NCBI GenBank assembly: GCA_905214895.1
Contig: CAJMNP010000021.1
Coordinates: 1-10,334, forward strand
DNA length: 10,334 nucleotides
Direction of reading: 5' to 3'
From: an uncultured bacterium
GTDB lineage: Bacteria; Actinomycetota; Coriobacteriia; Coriobacteriales; Coriobacteriaceae
Under the pieces are notes generated by a model. The model was not told where the DNA came from, did no database searches, and saw only the letters and a list, made by a program, of their open reading frames with translations. Made by a program: the position numbers and the translations under genes. Numbering within the stretch: position 1 is the first letter of the stretch; each line of letters starts with the position of its first letter. Below, piece after piece: positions 1-10,334 of the stretch.

Positions 1-8
1 GGTTGGCC

Positions 9-1862
9 ATGCCGCTTTTCTCGCAACATACCGCCCGGTTCTCGCCGGACGTTCCCTTGGAGGGCACCAGCTCTCGCGAGCTGCTCAAGCGGTACCAGCC
101 GCTCGAGACGCTTGCGACCGGCGGTTTTGGCTCCATCGAGATCTGCCGCGACACGCACCTGCGCCGTCGCGTGGCCATTAAGCGCATCCCCCTCACAGAC
201 GGCGCCGGCATGCCCGCCAGCGATATCATGGACGTGCTGCGCGAGGCGCATACCGCCGCCATGCTCCAACATCCCAATATCGTGCAGGTCATCGACTTTA
301 CGCACGACACCGCCTATGCCTACCTGGTCATGGAATATGTCGATGGCATGTCGCTCGCCGAGTTTTTGCATCGAGTCGACGGCCATTCGCTCACCTTTGA
401 CGAGGCGGCGGCCATTGCCGACGCGCTGGGCCAGGCGCTCACCTTCGCCCATAGCAATGGCGTGCTCCACCTGGACATCAAGCCTGCCAACGTGCTCATC
501 GACCACTCGGGCAACGTTAAGCTCACCGACTTTGGCATGGCACGTCTGTCGTCTGCCGGCGGCTTTGGCGGTTCGCGCGGCGGCACCATCGGCTACATGC
601 CACCCGAGCAGCTCGATATCGAGACCGGCACGGTCGACGAGCGCGCCGACGTCTTCGCCCTCGCCTGCGTCATTTACGAGAGCCTGTGCGGCAGCGCCCC
701 CTTTATGGCGGCAACGCCCGCCGACTCGCTCGGCCGCATCATCGGCGGCGCCACCTATCCCAGCGAGCTGATACCGCACTTTCCCCCGGGAGCCGAGGCA
801 GCGCTGATGAACGCCCTCTCCCCCATGCCGCAAGACCGCCCCAACAGCATCGAGGCATTTTGCGACCAGCTGCTCTCCGGCTTGGGCAGCGTGCGCGAGG
901 GCCGTCGCAGCCTGGAGCAGATGGTGGGCGAGCTGTCGGATGACGAGCGCGCGGCAGACGATATCGAATCGTTGCCCTATGAGGACGGCACCATCGAGGT
1001 CGACCCCGCACTCGGCTGGGCCGGCACGCGCTGGAGCCACGCGCGCAACTACACCATGCGCGCCATCTCGGCTCTCTCGTGTGGTGCCTTTAGCTTTTTG
1101 CTCATGCAGACGGCTGGCGTCGCGGCGCTTCCCGGACTTATTGCCGCGGCTATCGCGATTGGAGCGGCCGCCGGCCTGGCCCCGCAGATTGGTTCGGCTA
1201 TCTCGGCCGTGGGCTTTTTGGTACTTATGGCCAACGCCACCATGCAAGCGCAGGGCATCCTGTCGATGCTGCCCGTCGCGGTGCTCTTTGCCGCCACCAT
1301 GTCCGGTTGGTGGATCGCCTGGGGCCGCACCGAGGCCGCCGCGAGCGCCGCGCTCACCTGTGCGGTGGCACTCGGCTGTCTGACGGGCGATGTCCTCCTT
1401 GCCGCCGGGGTCGCTGCCGGCATCGCGGCCTTTTGGCTCGGCCCGGCAAGCGCCGCGGCAGTCACGGGGATGGGTGCGCTTTTTGGCCGCCTGGCTACGG
1501 TTGCGCTTTCCGCCGGAGGCGTGCTGGGACTCGGCAATGTTGCCGCGGCGCTGGGAGACACGCTCTTCTGGGCTGCCGTTGTGCTCGTCGCGGCGACAGC
1601 TGCACTGACATCTCTGCTGCTCAACGCCCATGCCAAGCGTGCCGAGCAGGGCTCGAACCTGACCGCAATCGTTGCCATCGCCGGCTGCGGAATAGGCTCC
1701 GCGGCATCGCTTTGTCTTGCACACCATATGGAAATTGCCAGCCTTGCGGCCGCGGTCGTCGTCAAGGCGGCAGTTGCGGGAACCCTATCCTCTATAATCG
1801 TTGGGATATGCCTATATTTGCTCGGATACCAAAGAACCTATACGGAGAGTGATCTTTCGTGA
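9..1862 (+). CDS. Ser/Thr protein kinase with polytopic membrane C-terminal domain (5' end at window edge)
   Basis: This is a Hanks-type Ser/Thr kinase, 617 residues from the ATG at 9. A TTG at 3 is also in frame and the frame is open to the window edge, so the true start could lie upstream. The kinase domain spans about residues 29-291. It has a glycine loop ATGGFGSI (36-43, with Ala for the first Gly), the catalytic Lys58 in VAIK, Glu79 on helix C, HLDIKPAN (154-161), DFG (174-176) and PPEQ (198-201). The HRD Arg is Leu155, which makes it a non-RD kinase, and the activation loop is Gly/Ser-rich without the usual Thr pair. An acidic juxtamembrane stretch (about 300-349) includes Thr328 in EDGTIEV. 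Residues about 350-608 form roughly 9-11 hydrophobic helices of unknown function. There are no PASTA repeats. It overlaps fhaA by 4 bases. It may fill a PknA-like role, but it is not a clear PknA orthologue, so no symbol is given. Confidence 0.9.
   Translation: MPLFSQHTARFSPDVPLEGTSSRELLKRYQPLETLATGGFGSIEICRDTHLRRRVAIKRIPLTDGAGMPASDIMDVLREAHTAAMLQHPNIVQVIDFTHDTAYAYLVMEYVDGMSLAEFLHRVDGHSLTFDEAAAIADALGQALTFAHSNGVLHLDIKPANVLIDHSGNVKLTDFGMARLSSAGGFGGSRGGTIGYMPPEQLDIETGTVDERADVFALACVIYESLCGSAPFMAATPADSLGRIIGGATYPSELIPHFPPGAEAALMNALSPMPQDRPNSIEAFCDQLLSGLGSVREGRRSLEQMVGELSDDERAADDIESLPYEDGTIEVDPALGWAGTRWSHARNYTMRAISALSCGAFSFLLMQTAGVAALPGLIAAAIAIGAAAGLAPQIGSAISAVGFLVLMANATMQAQGILSMLPVAVLFAATMSGWWIAWGRTEAAASAALTCAVALGCLTGDVLLAAGVAAGIAAFWLGPASAAAVTGMGALFGRLATVALSAGGVLGLGNVAAALGDTLFWAAVVLVAATAALTSLLLNAHAKRAEQGSNLTAIVAIAGCGIGSAASLCLAHHMEIASLAAAVVVKAAVAGTLSSIIVGICLYLLGYQRTYTESDLS
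1793..1798 (+). promoter_or_regulatory. Possible internal -10 element ahead of fhaA
   Basis: A perfect TATAAT lies in the last codons of the kinase gene, about 60 bases before the fhaA start, inside a locally AT-rich stretch (about 1785-1858) of an otherwise very GC-rich region. No good -35 box is seen at 16-18 bases upstream; TTGCGG at 1774 is too close, with a 13-base spacer. It could be a weak internal promoter that uncouples fhaA onward from the first kinase, or chance within Ser-Ile-Ile codons. Confidence 0.3.
1844..1849 (+). promoter_or_regulatory. Ribosome binding site deciding the GTG start of fhaA
   Basis: GGAGAG lies 9 bases before GTG 1859-1861, inside the end of the kinase gene. 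It supports a GTG start that overlaps the kinase stop codon as GTGA, which implies translational coupling. Confidence 0.7.
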
Positions 1863-2869
1863 ACTTCCTGAACATCTTCGAGGACCACGTGGCCGGCATC
1901 TTCGGTGCTACCCGTGCCCCGTTCTCCTTTAAGAAGCTTGCCAAGCAGGCCGCTCGCGACATGGAGGATCAGACTCTGGTGATCAACGGCGTCAACACCG
2001 CGCCGGCACTCTATACCATCCTGATCGCCGCCGACGACGATCCCATGCTCGCCCCGTTCTACCCCGAGCTTTCGCGCGAAGTCCGCGAGTTTGTGAAGGC
2101 ACAGGCCGAAAAGCGCCGCTATGTGTTTGTCGGCGAACCCCTCGTTCGCTTTATGATCGACCCGCAGCTGCGCGCCGGCAAGTTCTCGGTCTTTGCCGAG
2201 AACGTCGACGCCCCCACGCTCGGTCGTCTGTACGAGGAAGAGCGCGCCTACCAGAATGGCCTGGGCCAGAACAACTCGGCCGCAAGCCGCGCCGCCAGCG
2301 CTCCCCGTGCCGGCAAGCAGCAATTCGCCGCTCCGCAGCAACAGCACCCCGCCGCCATGCCCCAGCAGCCGGCGCCCCGTGCCGCCGCTCCCGACCCGCT
2401 CGCCGTGGCTGACCCCTTTGCGCCCAACGTCCCCGACCCCGCCGCCGCGCCCATCCCCGTGCCGCAAACCGTCTCTCGTGACGCCCTCGCCGGTATGGGC
2501 GGAGCCGCCGCGACCGGCGCCGCCGTGGGCCTTGGCGCCGCGGCCGGTATTGCCTCTAACATGGCGAGCACCCGCGCCCCGCAGCGCCCGCTCGCCCAGC
2601 TCGTCGACGTCGTGAGCGGCGAGAGCCACAGCATCACTTCCGCGCAGGTGACCATCGGTCGCGAGCGTTCGGTTTCGGACATAGCCCTGCGCGACCCCAA
2701 CGTGTCGCGCCGTCACGCCCAGCTCACCTTTACCGGTTCGGACTGGTCGATCGAGGACCTCAATTCCACCAACGGCACGCTCGTCAACAACCGCCGCATC
2801 ACGCGCTGCCCGCTGCGCAACGGCGACCTGCTGACGTTTGGCCTAAGCACCTTTGAATTTAGGGGATAG
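1859..2869 (+). CDS. fhaA: FhaA: DUF3662 and FHA domain phosphothreonine-binding protein
   Basis: This is a cytoplasmic adaptor of 336 residues. The N-terminal DUF3662 domain (about 1-116) begins MNFLNIFEDHVAGIFG and includes RYVFVGEP. A Pro/Ala/Gln-rich linker (about 120-210) follows, then a Gly/Ala-rich stretch (about 212-238), then a C-terminal FHA domain (about 245-336). The FHA domain keeps its phosphothreonine-binding residues: Gly267-Arg268, Ser283-Arg-Arg-His286 and Asn305-Gly306-Thr307. The domain order matches actinobacterial FhaA, which in mycobacteria binds the PknB-phosphorylated pseudokinase domain of the lipid II flippase MviN/MurJ. The start is GTG, with GGAGAG at 1844 and a GTGA overlap with the kinase stop. 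The gene ends 6 bases before fhaB. A partner role with the two kinases here is inferred from family knowledge and operon position. The identification is firm; the client protein is not in the window. Confidence 0.94.
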   Translation: MNFLNIFEDHVAGIFGATRAPFSFKKLAKQAARDMEDQTLVINGVNTAPALYTILIAADDDPMLAPFYPELSREVREFVKAQAEKRRYVFVGEPLVRFMIDPQLRAGKFSVFAENVDAPTLGRLYEEERAYQNGLGQNNSAASRAASAPRAGKQQFAAPQQQHPAAMPQQPAPRAAAPDPLAVADPFAPNVPDPAAAPIPVPQTVSRDALAGMGGAAATGAAVGLGAAAGIASNMASTRAPQRPLAQLVDVVSGESHSITSAQVTIGRERSVSDIALRDPNVSRRHAQLTFTGSDWSIEDLNSTNGTLVNNRRITRCPLRNGDLLTFGLSTFEFRG

Positions 2870-2875
2870 TCGCTT

Positions 2876-3292
2876 ATGAACATCGATATCGTCCTTTTTG
2901 CAGGCCGCATCGTCCTGGTCGCCTTGCTCTACATCTTCCTGTTCGCCGTCATGAAAACCGGCGTGGGACTCGTACGCGGCCAGCGCCGCGACTCCGCTAT
3001 CTGGACGATCGATGTGGACAAGGGTCCGCGCGGCATCCGTGGCATCCATGTAGACATGCTCGGCCCCGTCATCGTGGGCCGCTCGCCGTCCTCGGACATC
3101 TGCATCAACGAACCGTTTGTCTCGGCCTCGCACGCACGCTTTTCGCTGCAGGGCCCGGCACTCATTATCGAAGATCTCAACTCGCTGAACGGCACGCTCG
3201 TTAACGGCCGTCAGCTGGTAGAGCCCGCAACGCTGCGCGAGGGTGACGAGGTCCAGATTGGCGACGTGGTCATGAAGGTGAACCGTCGATGA
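2876..3292 (+). CDS. fhaB: FhaB: membrane-anchored FHA domain protein
   Basis: A small protein of 138 residues. One N-terminal hydrophobic helix (about 4-27) is followed by Arg/Lys-containing sequence, which predicts a short outside end and a cytoplasmic FHA domain (about 55-136). The FHA binding residues are present: Gly68-Arg69, Ser83-x-x-His86 and Asn105-Gly106-Thr107. Size, single TM helix, FHA domain and position between fhaA and pstP match actinobacterial FhaB (also called FipA in mycobacteria), which is linked to growth and division complexes through phosphothreonine binding. AGGGGAT at 2861-2867, overlapping the fhaA stop, is a good ribosome binding site for ATG 2876. The stop overlaps the pstP start as ATGA. 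I see no GarA-like N-terminal phospho-Thr motif, because the N-terminus is the membrane helix. Confidence 0.93.
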   Translation: MNIDIVLFAGRIVLVALLYIFLFAVMKTGVGLVRGQRRDSAIWTIDVDKGPRGIRGIHVDMLGPVIVGRSPSSDICINEPFVSASHARFSLQGPALIIEDLNSLNGTLVNGRQLVEPATLREGDEVQIGDVVMKVNRR

Positions 3293-5187
3293 TCGACGAG
3301 GAGAACAAGTCCGCAACCATGCCCGAGACGCCGACTGCCCCCGCAGCTGCGCCGGCCCATGCCGCTCCGGCGCGCCCTGCGACCGTGAAGCCCGAGGACA
3401 CCGTGTTCTCCCTGCCTCTTTCGCATGTAACTCAAGAATATCCGGCGCTCGTCGATGACGAGGATGCCGACACCGAGCAGCTCGACGCCCCCATCGGGGC
3501 GCACGCTGCCGAGCCGCCCGCGGAACCGGAGGCAACGCCCGCACCGGCTCACTTTGCCGAGCCCGTCGCCGAGGCGATGAACGAGAGCGCTGCCGTGTTT
3601 GCAGCCCCCGAGCCTGCCGCGCCGGTATTCCCCGTCGCCCCGGCAAGCGAGGCGGCACCCGCGTCCGCAACGCCTGTCGAAGTTGAGCGGCCCGTTGCCG
3701 CGCCCGCCGCAGCTCCCGAGCCCTCTGCTCAACCCCAGAGCACGCCCGCGCCGTCGCACTTTGCGACGCCCGAGCCGACGGCTGTCGAGCCGCAGCAGGA
3801 CGGCGATCCCGCCGACCGCGTAACCGAAGATCTCAACCTTCCGGACATCTCCGACGCCGAGTCGGGAGACGATGCCGACACCGTCTCCCCCGGCGACACC
3901 GCCGAGATCGATGTCGCCGCCGTGGAGGCAAAGCTCAAAGATCCCGGCTCGACCATGAGCTTTGAGCCGCTGACCGACGAGCGCATCGAGACCGACTCGA
4001 CCTACGACGCCGGCACCACCACGCAGCTTATGTGGGGCGCCCGCTCCGACGTCGGATGTGTACGCCCGCATAATGAGGACTCCTATCTGGTGCAGTCGCC
4101 GCTCTTTTGCGTGTGCGACGGCATGGGAGGACACGCCGCCGGCGAGGTGGCATCCTCCATCGCCGTCGAGACCATCGCCAAGACGGCGCCGCAGTCCGCC
4201 GACGCCGCGCGCCTGGCCGCAGCCGTCGAGGCCGCCAACGCCGCCGTGATCGAGGCCGCCCTCAACGGCCTGGGCAAACCCGGCATGGGATGCACGGCCA
4301 CCTGCGCCTACATCGAAAACGACACGCTTGCCATCGCCCACGTGGGCGACTCGCGCGCCTACCTGCTCCACGAGGGTACGCTCATCCGCGTGACCCGCGA
4401 CCACTCCTACGTGGAGGAGCTCGTGGATGCCGGCGAGATTACGGCCGACGAGGCCCGCGTCCACCCCAACCGCTCGGTCATCACCCGCGCGCTGGGCTCG
4501 GATCCCGCCATGTATGCCGACCACTTTACCCTGCACATCGAGGAGGGCGACCGCCTGATTCTGTGCTCCGACGGTCTTTCGAGCATGATTCCCGATAGCG
4601 ATATCGAGAATATCGCTACGCAGTCCTCGACCGCACAGATCTGTGTCGACAACCTGGTGGACGCGGCGCTCGCCGCCGGCGGCCACGACAATGTGACCGT
4701 GGTGGTCGTCGACCTGGTCGACGACGGCGTCATGCGCGAGGCAAAACGCGTCCGACGCCGCAATGTCACCATCGCCGCCATCGTGGCCCTTGTCTTTGTG
4801 CTGGTAGCAGGCATCTGGGCATACACGGGCATCACCGGCTCCTATTACTTGGGAACCTACCACGGCAATGTCGCCGTCTGGCGCGGCCTGCCCGGCAAGA
4901 CACTCGGGGTCGAGCTCCACTGGCTCGAGAGCGAAACCAGCATCAAACTGTCCGACCTGCCCGAAGACACGCAAAACCGCCTGAAGGCAGGCATTCCGCA
5001 AACGAGTGTCGACGATGCGCAGGACACCATTTCCAAGTACCGCCATCAGATTGACGAGGAGCAGACCCGTCAGGTGATTGACGCGCAAACGATTCGCGAC
5101 AACACCGATCAGGAATCCAACTCCGAGTCAGATTCCGAGAAAACCGCCGAACAGTCAGCCGAGGCCGAAGCCTCCGATAAGAATTAG
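3289..5187 (+). CDS. pstP: PstP: PP2C-family Ser/Thr protein phosphatase with long N-terminal extension
   Basis: A 632-residue metal-dependent phosphatase expected to reverse phosphorylation by the operon's kinases. The PP2C domain (about 245-480) has the expected motifs: RPHNED (259-264), DGMGG (277-281), VGDSRAY (352-358), SDGL (427-430) and GGHDN (464-468), so the metal-binding Asp residues are intact. A TM helix (about 492-513) after basic residues leads to an extracytoplasmic tail (514-632) that ends in Ser/Glu/Asp-rich sequence. Residues 1-243 are unusual: they are Ala/Pro/Glu/Asp-rich, probably disordered, and absent from the mycobacterial enzyme, which starts at the catalytic domain. 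They contain a duplicated decapeptide and acidic Thr motifs (Thr62, Thr198, Thr204). The start at 3289 is supported by AAGGTG at 3275-3280 and the ATGA overlap with fhaB. The internal Met248 has no visible ribosome binding site. A 16-base gap precedes the next gene. Confidence 0.94.
   Translation: MIDEENKSATMPETPTAPAAAPAHAAPARPATVKPEDTVFSLPLSHVTQEYPALVDDEDADTEQLDAPIGAHAAEPPAEPEATPAPAHFAEPVAEAMNESAAVFAAPEPAAPVFPVAPASEAAPASATPVEVERPVAAPAAAPEPSAQPQSTPAPSHFATPEPTAVEPQQDGDPADRVTEDLNLPDISDAESGDDADTVSPGDTAEIDVAAVEAKLKDPGSTMSFEPLTDERIETDSTYDAGTTTQLMWGARSDVGCVRPHNEDSYLVQSPLFCVCDGMGGHAAGEVASSIAVETIAKTAPQSADAARLAAAVEAANAAVIEAALNGLGKPGMGCTATCAYIENDTLAIAHVGDSRAYLLHEGTLIRVTRDHSYVEELVDAGEITADEARVHPNRSVITRALGSDPAMYADHFTLHIEEGDRLILCSDGLSSMIPDSDIENIATQSSTAQICVDNLVDAALAAGGHDNVTVVVVDLVDDGVMREAKRVRRRNVTIAAIVALVFVLVAGIWAYTGITGSYYLGTYHGNVAVWRGLPGKTLGVELHWLESETSIKLSDLPEDTQNRLKAGIPQTSVDDAQDTISKYRHQIDEEQTRQVIDAQTIRDNTDQESNSESDSEKTAEQSAEAEASDKN
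3535..3771 (+). repeat. Duplicated decapeptide in the PstP N-terminal extension
   Basis: Two copies of TPAP[AS]HFA[ET]P are encoded at 3535-3564 (residues 83-92) and 3742-3771 (residues 152-161). The codons differ between copies, so it is conserved at protein level rather than as a recent DNA duplication. The motif may be a short binding element within a disordered region; its function is unknown. Confidence 0.55.
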
Positions 5188-5195
5188 AAAGGGAG
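5188..5195 (+). promoter_or_regulatory. Ribosome binding site of the rodA-pbpA fusion gene
   Basis: AAAGGGAG sits 8 bases before ATG 5204 and directly after the pstP stop. It selects the start MSRRN and rules out the in-frame ATG at 5078, which lies within pstP and would add a 42-residue Pro/Arg/Lys-rich run unlike any SEDS protein. Confidence 0.85.
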
Positions 5196-5203
5196 TGCCG
5201 CTT

Positions 5204-8074
5204 ATGAGTCGCCGCAACACCGAACTGCTCTTGCTCATCGCCTCGGCGTTCCCCGTCATCCTGCTCTATGCGATGTACGTGCTCACCGCGGGTGCCACGA
5301 TTTCCTTTGAGACGCTCGCCGTGCCGATCGGCCTGTTCGCCGCCTTCGCCGCGGCGCATATCGCCGTGCGCATCCTGGCGCCCGGCGCCGATCCCGCCAT
5401 CCTACCCATCGTCTTTGTGCTCTCGGGCATCGGCATCACATTCGTGACGCGCCTAGCCCCCGACCTCGCCATCTCGCAGCTCATCATCTTGTTTGTCTCG
5501 GTGGCGCTCATGGTGGGAACGCTCGCACTGGTCAAGAACCTCGACGTGGTCATGCGCTACAAGTACACCTTTGGCATTATCGGCATCATCCTGCTGATGC
5601 TGCCGATCTTTATCGGCACCACGATCTCGGGCTCCAAGCTGTGGATTCGCATCGCGGGCTTCACCATCCAGCCCGGCGAGTTCGCCAAGGTCTTCATCGT
5701 CCTGTTCCTGGCAGGCTATCTGGCCGAGAACCGCGAGCTGCTTTCCATCTCCAACCGCAAGATCCTGGGCCTCAAGATTCCGCGCTTCCGCCTGCTGCTG
5801 CCGCTGTTTGCCGTGTGGGGCGTGTGCCTGCTCATCGTCGTCTTCGAACGCGACCTGGGCTCGGCCGTCCTGTTCTACACCATCTTTTTGCTGATGCTCT
5901 ATGTTGCCACGGGACGCTTTTCGTACGTCATCATCGGCCTTGCGCTGCTGGCCGTTGGAGCCGTGGGCGCCTACAAGTTCCTGTCGCACGTGCAGGTGCG
6001 CTTTCAGGTCTGGGTCGATCCGTTTAAGGACGCCCAGGGCCAGGGCTACCAGATCGTACAGTCACTTTACTCGCTGGCTGACGGTGGCCTGGTTGGCGTC
6101 GGCATTGGCAACGGCATGGCAAACAACATCCCCGTCGTCGAGTCCGACTTTATCTTCTCGGCTATCGGCGAGGAAATGGGCCTTTTGGGCGGCGGCGCCG
6201 TGCTCATCCTGTTTATGCTTTTTGCCGTGCGTGGCCTCACCACGGCAGCCCGCGCCAAGTCCGACCTTGCCGCCTTTAGCGCGACCGGCCTTACGGCGGC
6301 CATCAGCTTCCAGGCATTCTTAATCGTTGGCGGCGTAACCCGCCTGATCCCGCTGACCGGCGTCACCCTGCCCTTTATGAGCCAGGGCGGCTCCTCGCTG
6401 CTGGCGAGCTTTATCATCGTCGCGCTGCTGCTGCGCGCCGGCGACGAGGCAACCGGACGCGAAGCCGAGCTCACCGGCACCGGCACCATGGCCGCCATCA
6501 CCGATGACCAGGTCGCATCCGCCGCTGCCCCGACCGGTACGCGTTTTGCCAGCGCACCTTCCTACGGCCACGGCAACCACTCCGCGGGTTCTCGCATGCG
6601 TCGTCGCCTGCTCGACACGCCTGAGTCCGGCGTGCTCGGCCGCGTGGCACTTGCCAACCGTCTAACTCGTGCCGTGTTTGCCTTTACGGCGCTGTTCGCC
6701 ATCCTTATCGGCAACCTCACCTATGTCCAGGTCATCAAGGCGAAGGACTACCAGGACATGCCGACCAACAACCACACCATCGCCCGCTCCAAGTACATCC
6801 AGCGTGGCTCCATCATCACGTCCGACGGCGTGACGCTAGCCGAGTCGCTGCAGCAGGAGGACGGCACCTACGCCCGTTCCTACCCCAACGGCAACATGGC
6901 CGCGCACGTGGTGGGCTACGTGAGCCAGCAATACGGCACCGCCGGCATCGAGAGCGTCATGAACGATACGCTCACCGGCTCCAAGGATTACTCCAGCTGG
7001 AACAACGCCATCTCGTCGCTCGCGGGGCAGACCCAGCCGGGCAATACCGCCAAGCTCACCATCGACTCGCGCATCCAGACGGCTGCCGAGCAGGCGCTCA
7101 AGGGCTTTAAGGGCGCTGTGGTGGTCATGGATCCGCGCACCGGTGCGGTCCTTGCGTGCGCGAGCTCGCCCACCTACGACAACACCAACATCGATGCGCT
7201 GCTCCAGTCGGGCGGCGGCGAGGACGGCTCCATGTACGACCGTGCCATGGACGCGCTGTACACCCCGGGCTCGACCTTTAAGGTCGTCACGCTCTCCGCG
7301 GCGCTCGAAACCGGCACCGCCAGCCTTACCAGCACGTACCAGGCGCCTGGCTCCATGGACATCGGCAACGCGCCGGTCACCAACTATGCCAACGAGAGCT
7401 ACGGCACCATCAGCCTGCAGCAGGCCTTCGCCGTGTCGTCCAACGTCGTCTTTGGCCAGGTGGCAAACGAGATTGGCGCCAGCTCGCTCGTCCAGTTTGC
7501 CAACGCCTTTGGCTACGGCCAAAAGCTCGGTCAGGATCTGACCACCGCGGCTTCCATCATGGCCGACCCGTCGCTTATGACCGAGTGGGAGACCGCTTGG
7601 GCAGGCGCCGGCCAGCCCGTCGGCATGGACCACACGCCTGGCCCGCAGACCACCGTCATGCAGAATTGCGTGATCGCTGCCGCTATCGCCAACAGCGGCG
7701 TGGTCATGGACCCGTTCTTTGTGTCCCAGATACTCGCCCCGGACGGAACCGTGGTCAAGACCACGCAGTCCCGCTCGCTGGGCCAGGCTGTCAGCTCTGC
7801 CACGGCCGACCAGGTCAAGCAGGCCATGCTCGCCGTCGTCCAGTCCGGTACCGGCACCGATGCCCAGATTCCGGGCGTCAAGGTTGCCGGCAAGACCGGT
7901 TCGGCCGAGACCGGCGGCACCAACGTCAACTCTATGTTTGTTGGCTTTGCACCTTACGATTCACCCACGGTTGCCATCTCGGTAGCCCTGGAGGATTACG
8001 ACAAACACGACGTCAAGGCGGCCAAGATTGCCGGCATCGTCCTGACCGCGGCGCTCGCCGCACAGGGAGCGTGA
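5204..8074 (+). CDS. rodA-pbpA: RodA-PbpA fusion: SEDS peptidoglycan glycosyltransferase joined to class B transpeptidase
   Basis: One open frame of 956 residues joins two enzymes that mycobacteria encode separately. Residues 1 to about 412 are a polytopic SEDS (RodA/FtsW) glycan polymerase. Conserved signatures are QPGEFAKV (from Gln156), FERDLGSA (Asp217), ESDFIFSAIGEEMG (Asp315, aligning with the essential RodA Asp) and TGVTLPFMSQGGSS (ending at Ser398). A cytoplasmic linker (about 413-489) leads to a TM helix (about 490-513). The external penicillin-binding part has a short pedestal (RGSIITSDG, YPNGNMAAHVVGY) like mycobacterial PbpA. The transpeptidase part has SxxK Ser690-Lys693, SSN 745-747 and KTGS 897-900, so it looks active and beta-lactam-binding. 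The SEDS C-terminus and the PBP N-terminus both face the cytoplasm, so the topology allows fusion. No stop or convincing internal ribosome binding site occurs at the junction; Met429 and Met465 lack one. The protein should elongate and crosslink lipid II-derived glycan. Confidence 0.95.
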   Translation: MSRRNTELLLLIASAFPVILLYAMYVLTAGATISFETLAVPIGLFAAFAAAHIAVRILAPGADPAILPIVFVLSGIGITFVTRLAPDLAISQLIILFVSVALMVGTLALVKNLDVVMRYKYTFGIIGIILLMLPIFIGTTISGSKLWIRIAGFTIQPGEFAKVFIVLFLAGYLAENRELLSISNRKILGLKIPRFRLLLPLFAVWGVCLLIVVFERDLGSAVLFYTIFLLMLYVATGRFSYVIIGLALLAVGAVGAYKFLSHVQVRFQVWVDPFKDAQGQGYQIVQSLYSLADGGLVGVGIGNGMANNIPVVESDFIFSAIGEEMGLLGGGAVLILFMLFAVRGLTTAARAKSDLAAFSATGLTAAISFQAFLIVGGVTRLIPLTGVTLPFMSQGGSSLLASFIIVALLLRAGDEATGREAELTGTGTMAAITDDQVASAAAPTGTRFASAPSYGHGNHSAGSRMRRRLLDTPESGVLGRVALANRLTRAVFAFTALFAILIGNLTYVQVIKAKDYQDMPTNNHTIARSKYIQRGSIITSDGVTLAESLQQEDGTYARSYPNGNMAAHVVGYVSQQYGTAGIESVMNDTLTGSKDYSSWNNAISSLAGQTQPGNTAKLTIDSRIQTAAEQALKGFKGAVVVMDPRTGAVLACASSPTYDNTNIDALLQSGGGEDGSMYDRAMDALYTPGSTFKVVTLSAALETGTASLTSTYQAPGSMDIGNAPVTNYANESYGTISLQQAFAVSSNVVFGQVANEIGASSLVQFANAFGYGQKLGQDLTTAASIMADPSLMTEWETAWAGAGQPVGMDHTPGPQTTVMQNCVIAAAIANSGVVMDPFFVSQILAPDGTVVKTTQSRSLGQAVSSATADQVKQAMLAVVQSGTGTDAQIPGVKVAGKTGSAETGGTNVNSMFVGFAPYDSPTVAISVALEDYDKHDVKAAKIAGIVLTAALAAQGA

Positions 8075-8124
8075 TGCCCATGATCAAAGCGGATACTTAT
8101 GGCGCGCCGCGGCCGATGAGCTAG
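8074..8124 (+). CDS. Possible 16-codon mini-ORF coupled to the rodA-pbpA stop
   Basis: An ATG shares its A with the TGA stop of rodA-pbpA (TGATG) and opens a frame of 16 residues, MPMIKADTYGAPRPMS, ending at TAG 8122-8124. AGGGAG at 8064-8069 lies 4 bases before this ATG and 10 before a second in-frame ATG at 8080, so either could be used. Its 3' half lies in the hairpin at 8100-8137. No family is recognised. It may be a leader peptide for pknB, or chance in a GC-rich gap. Confidence 0.3.
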   Translation: MPMIKADTYGAPRPMS

Positions 8125-8137
8125 CGGCAACGCGCCA
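8100..8137 (+). promoter_or_regulatory. Stem-loop in the gap before pknB
   Basis: TGGCGCG (8100-8106) pairs with CGCGCCA (8131-8137), and CCGC (8107-8110) with GCGG (8124-8127) across a 3-base CAA bulge, giving an 11-bp GC-rich hairpin with a 13-base loop. No T-run follows, so it is not a standard intrinsic terminator. It may be an RNA processing or stability element, or a translation-sensitive structure, because it overlaps the mini-ORF stop codon. Confidence 0.45.
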
Positions 8138-8196
8138 CACGGCCCCAGCGGCCACACATCTGGTACTACACACATCGTTGAGCGAATAGTTATGTT

Positions 8197-8201
8197 AGGA
8201 G
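8197..8201 (+). promoter_or_regulatory. Ribosome binding site deciding the pknB start
   Basis: AGGAG lies 5 bases before ATG 8207, giving the start MEQRVLGGRY, which places the kinase domain close to the N-terminus as usual. The alternative ATG at 8192 precedes this site and has only a poor GAGCGA upstream. No convincing promoter is visible between 8075 and 8196. Confidence 0.75.
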
Positions 8202-8206
8202 CAGGA

Positions 8207-10150
8207 ATGGAACAGAGGGTCCTCGGGGGAAGATACCTCCTCAAGGATAAGGTGGGAACGGGCGGCATGGCGACCGTCTTCCGTGCACAGGATCAGGTCC
8301 TCGACCGCACGGTTGCCGTCAAGATCATGCTGCCGCAGTATGCCGGCGACGCCACCTTCGCCGCCCGCTTTAAGCAGGAGGCCCAGGCAGCGGCCGGCCT
8401 GTCCTCCCCCTATATCGTGGGCGTCTACGACTGGGGCAAGGACGGCGACACCTATTACATCGTCATGGAGTACCTGCGCGGTACCGACCTTAAGAGCGGC
8501 ATCAAGAGCCACGGCGCCCTCGATCCCAAGAAGGTCGCGCAGATCGGCTCGCAGATCAGCTCCGCGCTTTCGGTCGCACACAAGCACGAGATCATCCACC
8601 GCGACATTAAGCCGCAAAACATCATGGTGCTGCCCGACGGCAACATCAAGGTCATGGATTTTGGCATCGCACGCGCCAAGAACAGCCATCTCACGCAGGA
8701 TAACAACGTGCTGGGCACCGCCCACTATGTAAGCCCCGAGCAGACCCGCGGCCAGGACCTCGGCCCCACCTCGGATATCTACTCGCTGGGTGTCGTCATG
8801 TACGAGTGCGCCACCGGCCGCGTACCCTTTGACGGCGACGACGCCATCTCGGTTGCGCTCAAGCAGGTCAACGAGCTGCCCATCCCGCCGAGCCAGATCA
8901 ACTCCGGCGTCGATGCCGACTTGGAGCGCATCATCCTCAAGTGCATGGAGAAGGACCCGGCAAACCGCTTCCAGACGGCCGACGAGCTGCGCCAAGTGCT
9001 CAACAGCTACCTGTCCGGCCGTGCCGTCAACGTCTCGGAGCCCACGCGCATCATCGGTGCCGCCGGCGACCTGGGTGCCACCAAGACCCGCGAGCTTTCC
9101 GACTCAACGCGCGCTATGGTTCGCCCCGTCTCGGGCGTGAGCGGTCAGAACACCGCCCGCAGCGCTGTCTCGGGCTCCACGGGCTCCTATGAGGTCGAGA
9201 AGCCTAAGTCCAACAAGAACAAGATCATCGCCGCCGTGATTGCCGCCGTCGCCGTGATTGGCGTTGTAGTGGCCTTTGCCACGGGCATGTTCAGCGGCGA
9301 CCAGGTTACGGTCCCCGATGTGCTGGGCAAGGATCAGGAGACCGCCGTCGAGCTGATCCAGGAGGCCGGCCTGGAGGTCGGCACCGTCGACCAGAGCTAC
9401 AACGACGATGTCGACGAGGGAAAGGTCGCCGAGCAGACCCCCAACGGCCACACCAAAAAGCCCAAGGGCACGAGGGTGAACCTGGTAATCTCCAAGGGCC
9501 CCAAGCCCTCCGAAAAGGTTGAGGTCCCGCAGCTCGTCGGTTTGACCAAGGACCAGGCCGAGGCAGCGCTGGCAAGCGTAGGCCTGAAGGGCAGCGCTTC
9601 GGAGGAAGCCAATGAGGCCGAAGAGGGCCAGGTCTTTGAACAGACCACTGCTGCCGGCAAGGAGGTCGAGAAGGGAACGACCATCTCGTACAAGGTCTCC
9701 AGCGGCCCGGACACCACCTCGGTGCCCGATCTGACCGACATGACCGAGGCTCAGGCGCGCAACGCCCTCGACATGGCTGGCTTTGGCGTCGACGTGAGCT
9801 ATCAGGAAAACGACTCGGTTACCGAGGGCACCGTAATTAGCTGGAACCCCAGCGGCAAGCAGAAGCCCGGTGCCACGATCACCGTCGTCATCGCCAAGAA
9901 GTCCGGCAAGGCCAGCGTCCCGGGCAACCTGTACGGCAAGAGCATCTCCGCCGCCGTCACCGCGCTCAACAACGCCGGATTCTACAACATCGCGTTCTGC
10001 GATCAGAACGGTAACCCTGTGAGCGGCAACGAGAACGCAACTGTCACGGGTGTCTCCCCCACCGGCAAGCAGTCCACCGACAGCACGATTACGCTGACGG
10101 TTTCGATTTCTGGCTCCGGCTCCGGCGACGATTCCGGTACAAGCAACTAG
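8207..10150 (+). CDS. pknB: PknB: transmembrane Ser/Thr protein kinase with four PASTA repeats
   Basis: A 647-residue sensor kinase for cell-wall growth. The cytoplasmic kinase domain (about 8-268) has glycine loop GTGGMATVF, Lys39 in VAVKIM, HRDIKPQN (131-138), DFG (151-153) and SPEQ (176-179), all expected for an active RD kinase. In the activation loop, Thr163-Gln164-Asp165 aligns without gaps with Thr171-Gln-Thr173 of M. tuberculosis PknB, so the second regulatory Thr is an Asp. A juxtamembrane linker (about 270-337) carries Thr motifs such as EPTRII (Thr280) and DSTRAM (Thr301). One TM helix (about 340-362) leads to four extracytoplasmic PASTA repeats starting near residues 366, 437, 503 and 568; the fourth is the most divergent and is followed by a Gly/Ser tail. 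PASTA repeats in this family bind muropeptides or lipid II. The gene ends the operon, 50 bases before a terminator. By family knowledge its substrates include FhaA-binding and wall-synthesis proteins. Confidence 0.96.
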   Translation: MEQRVLGGRYLLKDKVGTGGMATVFRAQDQVLDRTVAVKIMLPQYAGDATFAARFKQEAQAAAGLSSPYIVGVYDWGKDGDTYYIVMEYLRGTDLKSGIKSHGALDPKKVAQIGSQISSALSVAHKHEIIHRDIKPQNIMVLPDGNIKVMDFGIARAKNSHLTQDNNVLGTAHYVSPEQTRGQDLGPTSDIYSLGVVMYECATGRVPFDGDDAISVALKQVNELPIPPSQINSGVDADLERIILKCMEKDPANRFQTADELRQVLNSYLSGRAVNVSEPTRIIGAAGDLGATKTRELSDSTRAMVRPVSGVSGQNTARSAVSGSTGSYEVEKPKSNKNKIIAAVIAAVAVIGVVVAFATGMFSGDQVTVPDVLGKDQETAVELIQEAGLEVGTVDQSYNDDVDEGKVAEQTPNGHTKKPKGTRVNLVISKGPKPSEKVEVPQLVGLTKDQAEAALASVGLKGSASEEANEAEEGQVFEQTTAAGKEVEKGTTISYKVSSGPDTTSVPDLTDMTEAQARNALDMAGFGVDVSYQENDSVTEGTVISWNPSGKQKPGATITVVIAKKSGKASVPGNLYGKSISAAVTALNNAGFYNIAFCDQNGNPVSGNENATVTGVSPTGKQSTDSTITLTVSISGSGSGDDSGTSN

Positions 10151-10200
10151 CCGGCTGCTTATTACCTGCGGCAGCGAACGCTGCAAACATATTCGCTCAG

Positions 10201-10241
10201 AAGCGCCCGCTTGCTCCCCCGGCAAGCGGGCGCTTTGCTTT
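10201..10241 (+). terminator. Intrinsic terminator of the operon
   Basis: A perfect 14-bp stem (AAGCGCCCGCTTGC at 10201-10214 with its complement at 10222-10235) and a 7-base loop are followed by TGCTTTAG, giving a broken T-run CTTTGCTTT. It lies 50 bases after the pknB stop. The minus-strand exit has no T-run, so it acts on + strand transcripts. A smaller inverted repeat (GCAGCG-AA-CGCTGC, 10171-10184) lies between it and pknB. Confidence 0.88.
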
Positions 10242-10277
10242 AGATGCGGACCGCCAACATGAAACGGCGCAACTCTT

Positions 10278-10315
10278 AAACCAGAAGAGCCCGGCACCGT
10301 GGTGGTACCGGGCTC
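10278..10315 (-). terminator. Intrinsic terminator for a convergent gene beyond the window
   Basis: GAGCCCGG (10287-10294) and CCGGGCTC (10308-10315) form an 8-bp stem, extended after one mismatch by ACC/GGT around a 5-base loop. Read on the minus strand the hairpin is followed by TTCTGGTTT, a T-rich exit; on the plus strand GGCAAATC follows. This orientation points to a minus-strand transcript entering from the right edge. Confidence 0.55.
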
Positions 10316-10325
10316 GGCAAATCTC

Positions 10326-10334
10326 TGGTGCCCC
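10326..10334 (-). tRNA. Possible 3' end of a convergent tRNA gene (only last 9 bases)
   Basis: Read on the minus strand, the window's last bases give GGGGCACCA, which fits an acceptor 3' strand GGGGC, discriminator A and an encoded CCA, as in tRNAs that start GCCCC. A minus-strand terminator lies just downstream at 10278-10315, as expected for a tRNA transcript. With 9 bases visible, the identity and amino acid cannot be decided and chance is possible. Confidence 0.3.

Follow-up and report, generated by a model that had tools for sequence, protein, structure and literature searches.

A single gene encodes a SEDS polymerase fused to a PbpA-type transpeptidase

We analysed a 10,334-nucleotide stretch of DNA from an uncultured bacterium of the Coriobacteriaceae (GenBank assembly GCA_905214895.1, contig CAJMNP010000021.1, positions 1 to 10,334; hereafter, the window). 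At 5204..8074, between a phosphatase and a kinase gene, it carries a single gene that joins a SEDS (shape, elongation, division and sporulation) polymerase to a penicillin-binding protein (PBP) of the PbpA type. This gene, like all features described below, lies on the forward strand. The window derives from Collinsella aerofaciens or a very close relative: it matched 22 loci from named genomes, the best of them in C. aerofaciens (99% identity). The frame runs without interruption from the ATG at 5204 to the stop at 8072-8074 and encodes 956 amino acids with a computed mass of 100,055 Da. The start is preceded by a purine-rich Shine-Dalgarno sequence (AAAGGGAG) that matches AGGAGG in 4/6 positions.

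The SEDS domain (FTSW_RODA_SPOVE, PF01098) spans 5399..6445 (residues 66-414; Pfam E 5.5e-74), and its score of 249.7 bits against a cut-off of 26.4 places it in the SEDS glycosyltransferase family. It includes a conserved Glu159 (5678-5680) and, in an extracellular loop, the putative catalytic Asp315 (6146-6148), which lines up with the Asp of the TDFIF/TDFVF motif of 8tj3_B and 6bar_A, an Asp that we take to be the catalytic residue of SEDS proteins. In the C-terminal half, a PbpA-type dimerisation or pedestal domain (PBP_dimer_2, PF21922; 6803..7045, residues 534-614; Pfam E 1.2e-24) is followed by a DD-transpeptidase domain (PF00905; 7112..8023, residues 637-940; Pfam E 1.1e-55). The latter contains the SxxK (S690-TF-K693, STFK; 7271-7282), SxN (S745-S-N747, SSN; 7436-7444) and KTG (K897-T-G899; 7892-7900) motifs, exactly at the positions given in a first-pass annotation of this DNA. 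With these motifs, both Pfam matches above cut-off and no GT51 domain (PF00912) among the Pfam matches of the fusion, this half is a class B PBP (bPBP) of the PbpA type and not a class A PBP. Crystal structures with beta-lactams are known for a relative, and the fusion may bind them as well.

The transpeptidase catalytic residues were constant in two alignments, A1 (21 fusions) and A2 (125 fusions), and neither E159 nor D315 varied in A2, which was chosen from top-scoring matches (122 of 233 listed proteins, the window and two loci) and in which rare variants are under-represented. The annotation's proposal of a natural SEDS-PbpA fusion in one uninterrupted frame is borne out, with both sets of active-site residues conserved.

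In AlphaFold2 models, two N-terminal helices (residues 3-28 and 39-58; 5210..5377) precede a 10-helix SEDS core. When the first 530 residues were folded alone, seven solved FtsW/RodA chains aligned with the model only from residue 53-62 onward; both helices are predicted to be additions to the part shared with the solved RodA/FtsW structures. At the other end, a single long helix (6620..6736, residues 473-511) is predicted to run from a GVLGRVAL-type cytoplasmic segment into the PBP transmembrane helix. The junction residues L478-G479-R480 were found in 125/125 rows of A2, but of 67 additional fused proteins only 48 fitted the junction pattern; LGR at the junction is therefore common, not strict.

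The join recurs across the Coriobacteriia

In a search of the class for this domain pair, as the first-pass annotation had suggested, 106 of the 107 distinct sources (110 loci) carried the SEDS half and then the PBP half in a single frame, each half being judged by its best domain. The sources were 22 named records and 85 genomes, the latter spread over 49 genus and 21 family codes, and the sole exception (L129) has a run of N, an assembly gap, in the linker. The junction is free of stops, as had been claimed for the window, and the fusion, which that annotation had set beside rare RodA-PBP2 fusions, is not rare within the Coriobacteriia. Judged from these frames, the two halves would be made as one polypeptide rather than two. 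Among genomes with a strong PBP_dimer_2 match, a frame of at least 889 amino acids was open in 65 of 69 from the class outside the order, and one of at least 915 in 67 of 74 from a set chosen from the order. The shorter frames that were opened reflected contig ends, gaps or breaks away from the join. Some source records already label such proteins as FtsW/FtsI double proteins.

We considered whether a sequencing or assembly error had merged two overlapping genes. We compared 71 distinct SEDS-PbpA pairs from other Actinomycetota (27 + 44, the latter after removal of six genes present twice among 50 loci), a non-random set that includes every listed frame of at least 880 amino acids outside the class. 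In 26/27 and 26/44 of them (52/71 in total), the in-frame start codon of the PBP gene overlaps the SEDS stop by 4 nucleotides (NTGA), an arrangement in different frames that one indel error would fuse, and one protein discussed below (P0308) may be such a case. However, the in-frame join in 106/107 sources excludes chance or sequencing error at the join and refutes this explanation for the class, and the residue numbering of an Atopobium parvulum structure in the PDB (526-950) is concordant with a fused protein. We therefore give an artefact next to no chance.

The fusion is the rodA-pbpA pair of the pstP operon

The window opens with a Ser/Thr kinase gene (3..1862), the first of the cluster, whose product has about eight C-terminal hydrophobic segments and may stand in for PknA; a second kinase upstream was also present in L008, L026 and L029. 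There follow FhaA (FhaA_N and FHA domains in Pfam; 1859..2869), FhaB (one hydrophobic segment and an FHA domain; 2876..3292) and PstP, a PP2C phosphatase of the Stp1 type (3289..5187; NCBIfam NF033484, 250.3 bits, cut-off 230). Downstream of the fusion lies PknB, a Ser/Thr kinase with PASTA domains (8192..10150; NCBIfam NF033483, 681.3 bits, cut-off 450). The order kinase-FhaA-FhaB-PstP-fusion-PknB is that of the known actinobacterial pstP locus, and linkage of pstP, rodA, pbpA and a PASTA kinase in actinobacteria is described in a passage of PMC6554272. Both kinase and PP2C genes were found nearby in 13/13 fused loci and in 17 of the 20 separate loci tested; one separate locus (L127) had only a kinase nearby.

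The SEDS half had been labelled RodA in the first-pass annotation, a label that implies the Rod complex and that did not hold: the fusion reached neither the NCBIfam RodA model (196.7 bits, cut-off 336.7) nor the PBP2/MrdA model (270.2 bits, cut-off 455). The nearest genome used for comparison (G001, sharing 73% of sampled 31-letter words with the window) encodes three SEDS and four transpeptidase proteins. One SEDS protein lies beside MreC, MreB and a PBP2 whose PBP_dimer domain is complete, the PBP2 gene preceding the RodA gene; the second resembles FtsW and has an FtsI-like PBP roughly 4 kb upstream; the third belongs to the SEDS-PbpA fusion. The fourth transpeptidase protein, encoded by a separate gene, has a GT51 domain and is a class A PBP. 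Among class genomes selected on the basis of good completeness, 40/40 had exactly three SEDS matches, and in every case one of these fell in the long frame (782 amino acids in G031, 915 or more in the remaining 39).

A fusion of the Rod-complex RodA-PBP2 pair, serving MreB-directed elongation, could be argued from a weak PBP_dimer match (25.9 bits, cut-off 24.4), in which no single stretch passes. Against it stand the separate RodA-PBP2 pair beside MreC and MreB in G001 and the placement of the SEDS half with SEDS proteins of separate PbpA pairs, apart from the RodA rows (see below). We regard a Rod-complex fusion as very improbable. Its FHA, PP2C and PASTA-kinase neighbours and its place in the tree identify the fusion as the rodA-pbpA pair of the pstP/PASTA-kinase operon, not the Rod-complex pair. 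It differs from its counterparts in Mycobacterium and Streptomyces, where the pstP-operon pair is two genes, and from the RodA-PBP2 of E. coli and T. thermophilus (8tj3, 6pl5), which are two natural polypeptides and whose Rod-type PBP2 has a PF03717 pedestal, where the fusion has PF21922.

The fusions form one clade

The 20 fusions in a 77-row SEDS tree formed one clade (SH-aLRT [Shimodaira-Hasegawa-like approximate likelihood ratio test] 100) inside a larger clade (100) shared with 25 SEDS proteins of separate SEDS-PbpA pairs, apart from the 32 other SEDS proteins. The fusions again formed one clade in a PBP tree of 45 rows (SH-aLRT 99), in which the long branches of the two other bPBPs come together and the composition of several rows is unusual; both trees were built in a quick mode without bootstrap. 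Outside the class, 0/71 of the pairs described above were fused. In a search of the phylum and in 80 further genomes, all listed frames of at least 880 amino acids outside the class were opened (16 + 13, the rows with short frames mostly remaining unopened) and none was fused. These long open frames held two genes in different frames, so that frame length alone is misleading.

Taken with the 4-nucleotide overlaps, these data suggest that the fusion probably arose when an overlapping pair acquired an indel of net +1 or -2 near the end of its SEDS gene, and a single origin before the sampled Coriobacteriia radiated would form part of the best explanation. The same arrangement persists elsewhere in the window, where kinase and fhaA overlap at 1859-1862 and fhaB and pstP at 3289-3292.

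Among the best 120 of 2954 matches in a length-filtered SEDS protein search, 20 of the proteins fused to a PBP were placed in a tree, and 19 of these 20 joined the Coriobacteriia fusions (39-row set, SH-aLRT 100). In five others of these 120 (P0245, P0246, P0273, P0280 and P0295), the SEDS protein was joined to a PP2C phosphatase, its upstream operon neighbour. This label requires five changes on the tree; P0245 has a stretch that appears to be out of frame, and some of the SEDS-PP2C joins may be sequencing errors.

The linker is variable and mostly short

Between the two halves lies a cytoplasmic linker (6446..6634, residues 415-477) with predicted disorder at residues 418-433 and 439-474, judged from the predicted local distance difference test. 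Between residue 414, where the Pfam SEDS match ends, and the start of the PBP membrane helix (about 491) we counted 76 residues, in line with the 77 reported earlier, and the D414-L478 spacing is 63 residues in the window protein. In the 125 aligned fusions, 109 linkers had 17-18 residues, one had 22 and 15, including that of the window, had 50-100. The long form, seen in Collinsella- and Olsenella-type rows, is of low complexity with conserved ends on both sides; since 109/125 linkers are short, it represents a local expansion and cannot explain how the fusion works in general. Across 20 equally long Collinsella sequences, from the window and 19 loci (excluding the partial L023, the Olsenella L026 and the longer L029), the ratio of nonsynonymous to synonymous polymorphism was 0.030 for the SEDS half, 0.060 for the PBP part and 0.147 for the linker. 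The linker is freer than both halves, yet constrained as protein.

The linker had also been proposed as a site for phosphorylation or FHA docking. As a general function this found no support, and an FHA-docking linker was rejected as a class feature, because the linkers of 109/125 aligned fusions are only 17-18 residues long. In 95/125 linkers a loose E-[MLVIA]-x(1-3)-T pattern occurred, and several separate SEDS proteins (L098, L103-L107, L120) have a short C-terminal T-Q-V-V tail; as kinase or FHA sites, these pattern matches are suggestive only.

Two in-frame ATGs fall in the linker of the window, at 6488 (codon 429) and 6596 (codon 465). The earlier statement that the junction lacks an internal ribosome binding site held in part: the AGGAGG matches before these ATGs score 2/6 and 3/6, against 4/6 for the start of the fusion, but the start of pknB itself also scores 3/6. 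Such a site is likely absent from the Collinsella linker. If it were used, or if the linker were cleaved, separate SEDS and PBP products would result and the fusion would ensure only their equal synthesis. This is compatible with the predicted disorder, with the retention of both ATGs in 20/20 Collinsella sequences, with the match at 6596 equalling that of pknB and, for engineered E. coli fusions, with the cleavage of a minor fraction mentioned in the S5 legend of Rohs et al, 2018 (PMC6207328). On the other hand, a long cleavable linker is not general, as 109/125 linkers have 17-18 residues, and a Met between residues 429 and 487 was present in just 19/125 aligned fusions (GTG and TTG starts uncounted), so that an internal ATG start is no class feature. 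We consider two products an unlikely outcome.

Discussion

The explanation that we favour, and hold to be quite probable, is that the gene encodes a single-chain bifunctional peptidoglycan synthase, a fused rodA-pbpA pair of the pstP operon that has one origin and provides a third SEDS-bPBP synthase. What the sequences show directly is the single frame, the conservation of the active-site residues, the grouping in one clade, the identity of the operon and the presence of the two other pairs in G001. SEDS-bPBP synthases build walls in most bacteria, and both ends of SEDS proteins as well as the N-terminus of bPBPs are cytoplasmic. Because the SEDS protein ends and the bPBP begins in the cytoplasm, only the SEDS-then-PBP order can fuse directly, and among the three G001 pairs this order occurs only in the fusion pair. 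Within the membrane, the SEDS half would polymerise lipid II; outside, the PbpA half, held by its own membrane helix directly past the cytoplasmic linker, would crosslink the new strand. Separate Rod (RodA-PBP2) and division (FtsW-FtsI) pairs are present beside this synthase. We infer that the 100-kDa protein accumulates uncut, with two active halves that act on one and the same strand, and that the PASTA kinase and phosphatase of the operon would regulate it. The fixed 1:1 pairing put forward in the first-pass annotation remains the simplest reading of a covalent join, and a fixed 1:1 supply may be its benefit. This single-chain mechanism is suggested by the active-site conservation, by the known topology and by engineered fusions of the same order that work, as described in passages of Rohs et al, 2018 (PMC6207328) and Nygaard et al, 2023 (PMC10449877).

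Several observations weigh against this explanation. No strong PbpA-type match was found in 14 of the 83 genomes sampled from the class outside the order or in 6 of 80 genomes chosen from the order, so the fusion is not universal in the class. In L128, from a single-contig genome given as 100% complete (G031), the frame is broken within the PBP half (782 + 161 amino acids), which is either an error or a real loss, and L130, L131 and L135 also have breaks, located away from the join. P0308 fell outside the fusion clade, and one clade of all 40 proteins was rejected (approximately unbiased test, p-AU 0.010); its junction retains the usual PBP N-terminus and another stretch appears out of frame. 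It is a possible second independent SEDS-PBP fusion, which we do not count as a sound second origin. Among the 20 separate loci tested, neither kinase nor phosphatase was found near L121 and L123, so this type of pair also occurs outside the operon; the genome of L121 (G574) also has a pair with both neighbours (L120), which makes L121 a second copy outside the operon. Finally, both linker ATGs are retained in Collinsella, and cleavage in the predicted disordered linker or a start at 6596 could free the PBP.

Natural SEDS-PBP fusions have been mentioned before. With reference to the Rhodococcus RHA1 genome paper, a passage in Nygaard et al, 2023 (PMC10449877) mentions a natural single open reading frame with both parts, as in the window, and gives no sequence, distribution or origin. 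Crystal structures of 'peptidoglycan glycosyltransferase' from Atopobium parvulum and Eggerthella lenta (4jbf, 4qjg, 4r1g, 4mnr and others) represent the same kind of transpeptidase half, 54-56% and 47% identical to the window protein over the aligned part; they were solved without the SEDS half, and the PDB titles examined are silent on a SEDS fusion. Our literature search, which did not cover most subscription papers and is no proof of novelty, found no report of a class-wide Coriobacteriia fusion, its single origin or its role as a third synthase.

The need for SEDS and bPBP to stay together, and their ratio, have been argued largely from engineered fusions. Here, a fusion appears evolutionarily fixed in a class to which common gut bacteria belong. 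It would offer a ready-made single-chain synthase for structural work and assays, a 100-kDa marker in gels labelled with fluorescent penicillin and a natural setting in which to test assembly versus conformational control. The stronger view, that it is a lineage-defining kinase-operon synthase whose polymerase and crosslinker are never able to part, seems to us evenly balanced between right and wrong. If true, partner exchange or dissociation of the SEDS-bPBP pair would be dispensable for this third pathway, with separate Rod and Fts pairs kept, and its regulation would act by conformation, through pedestal, linker and kinase, and not by assembly.
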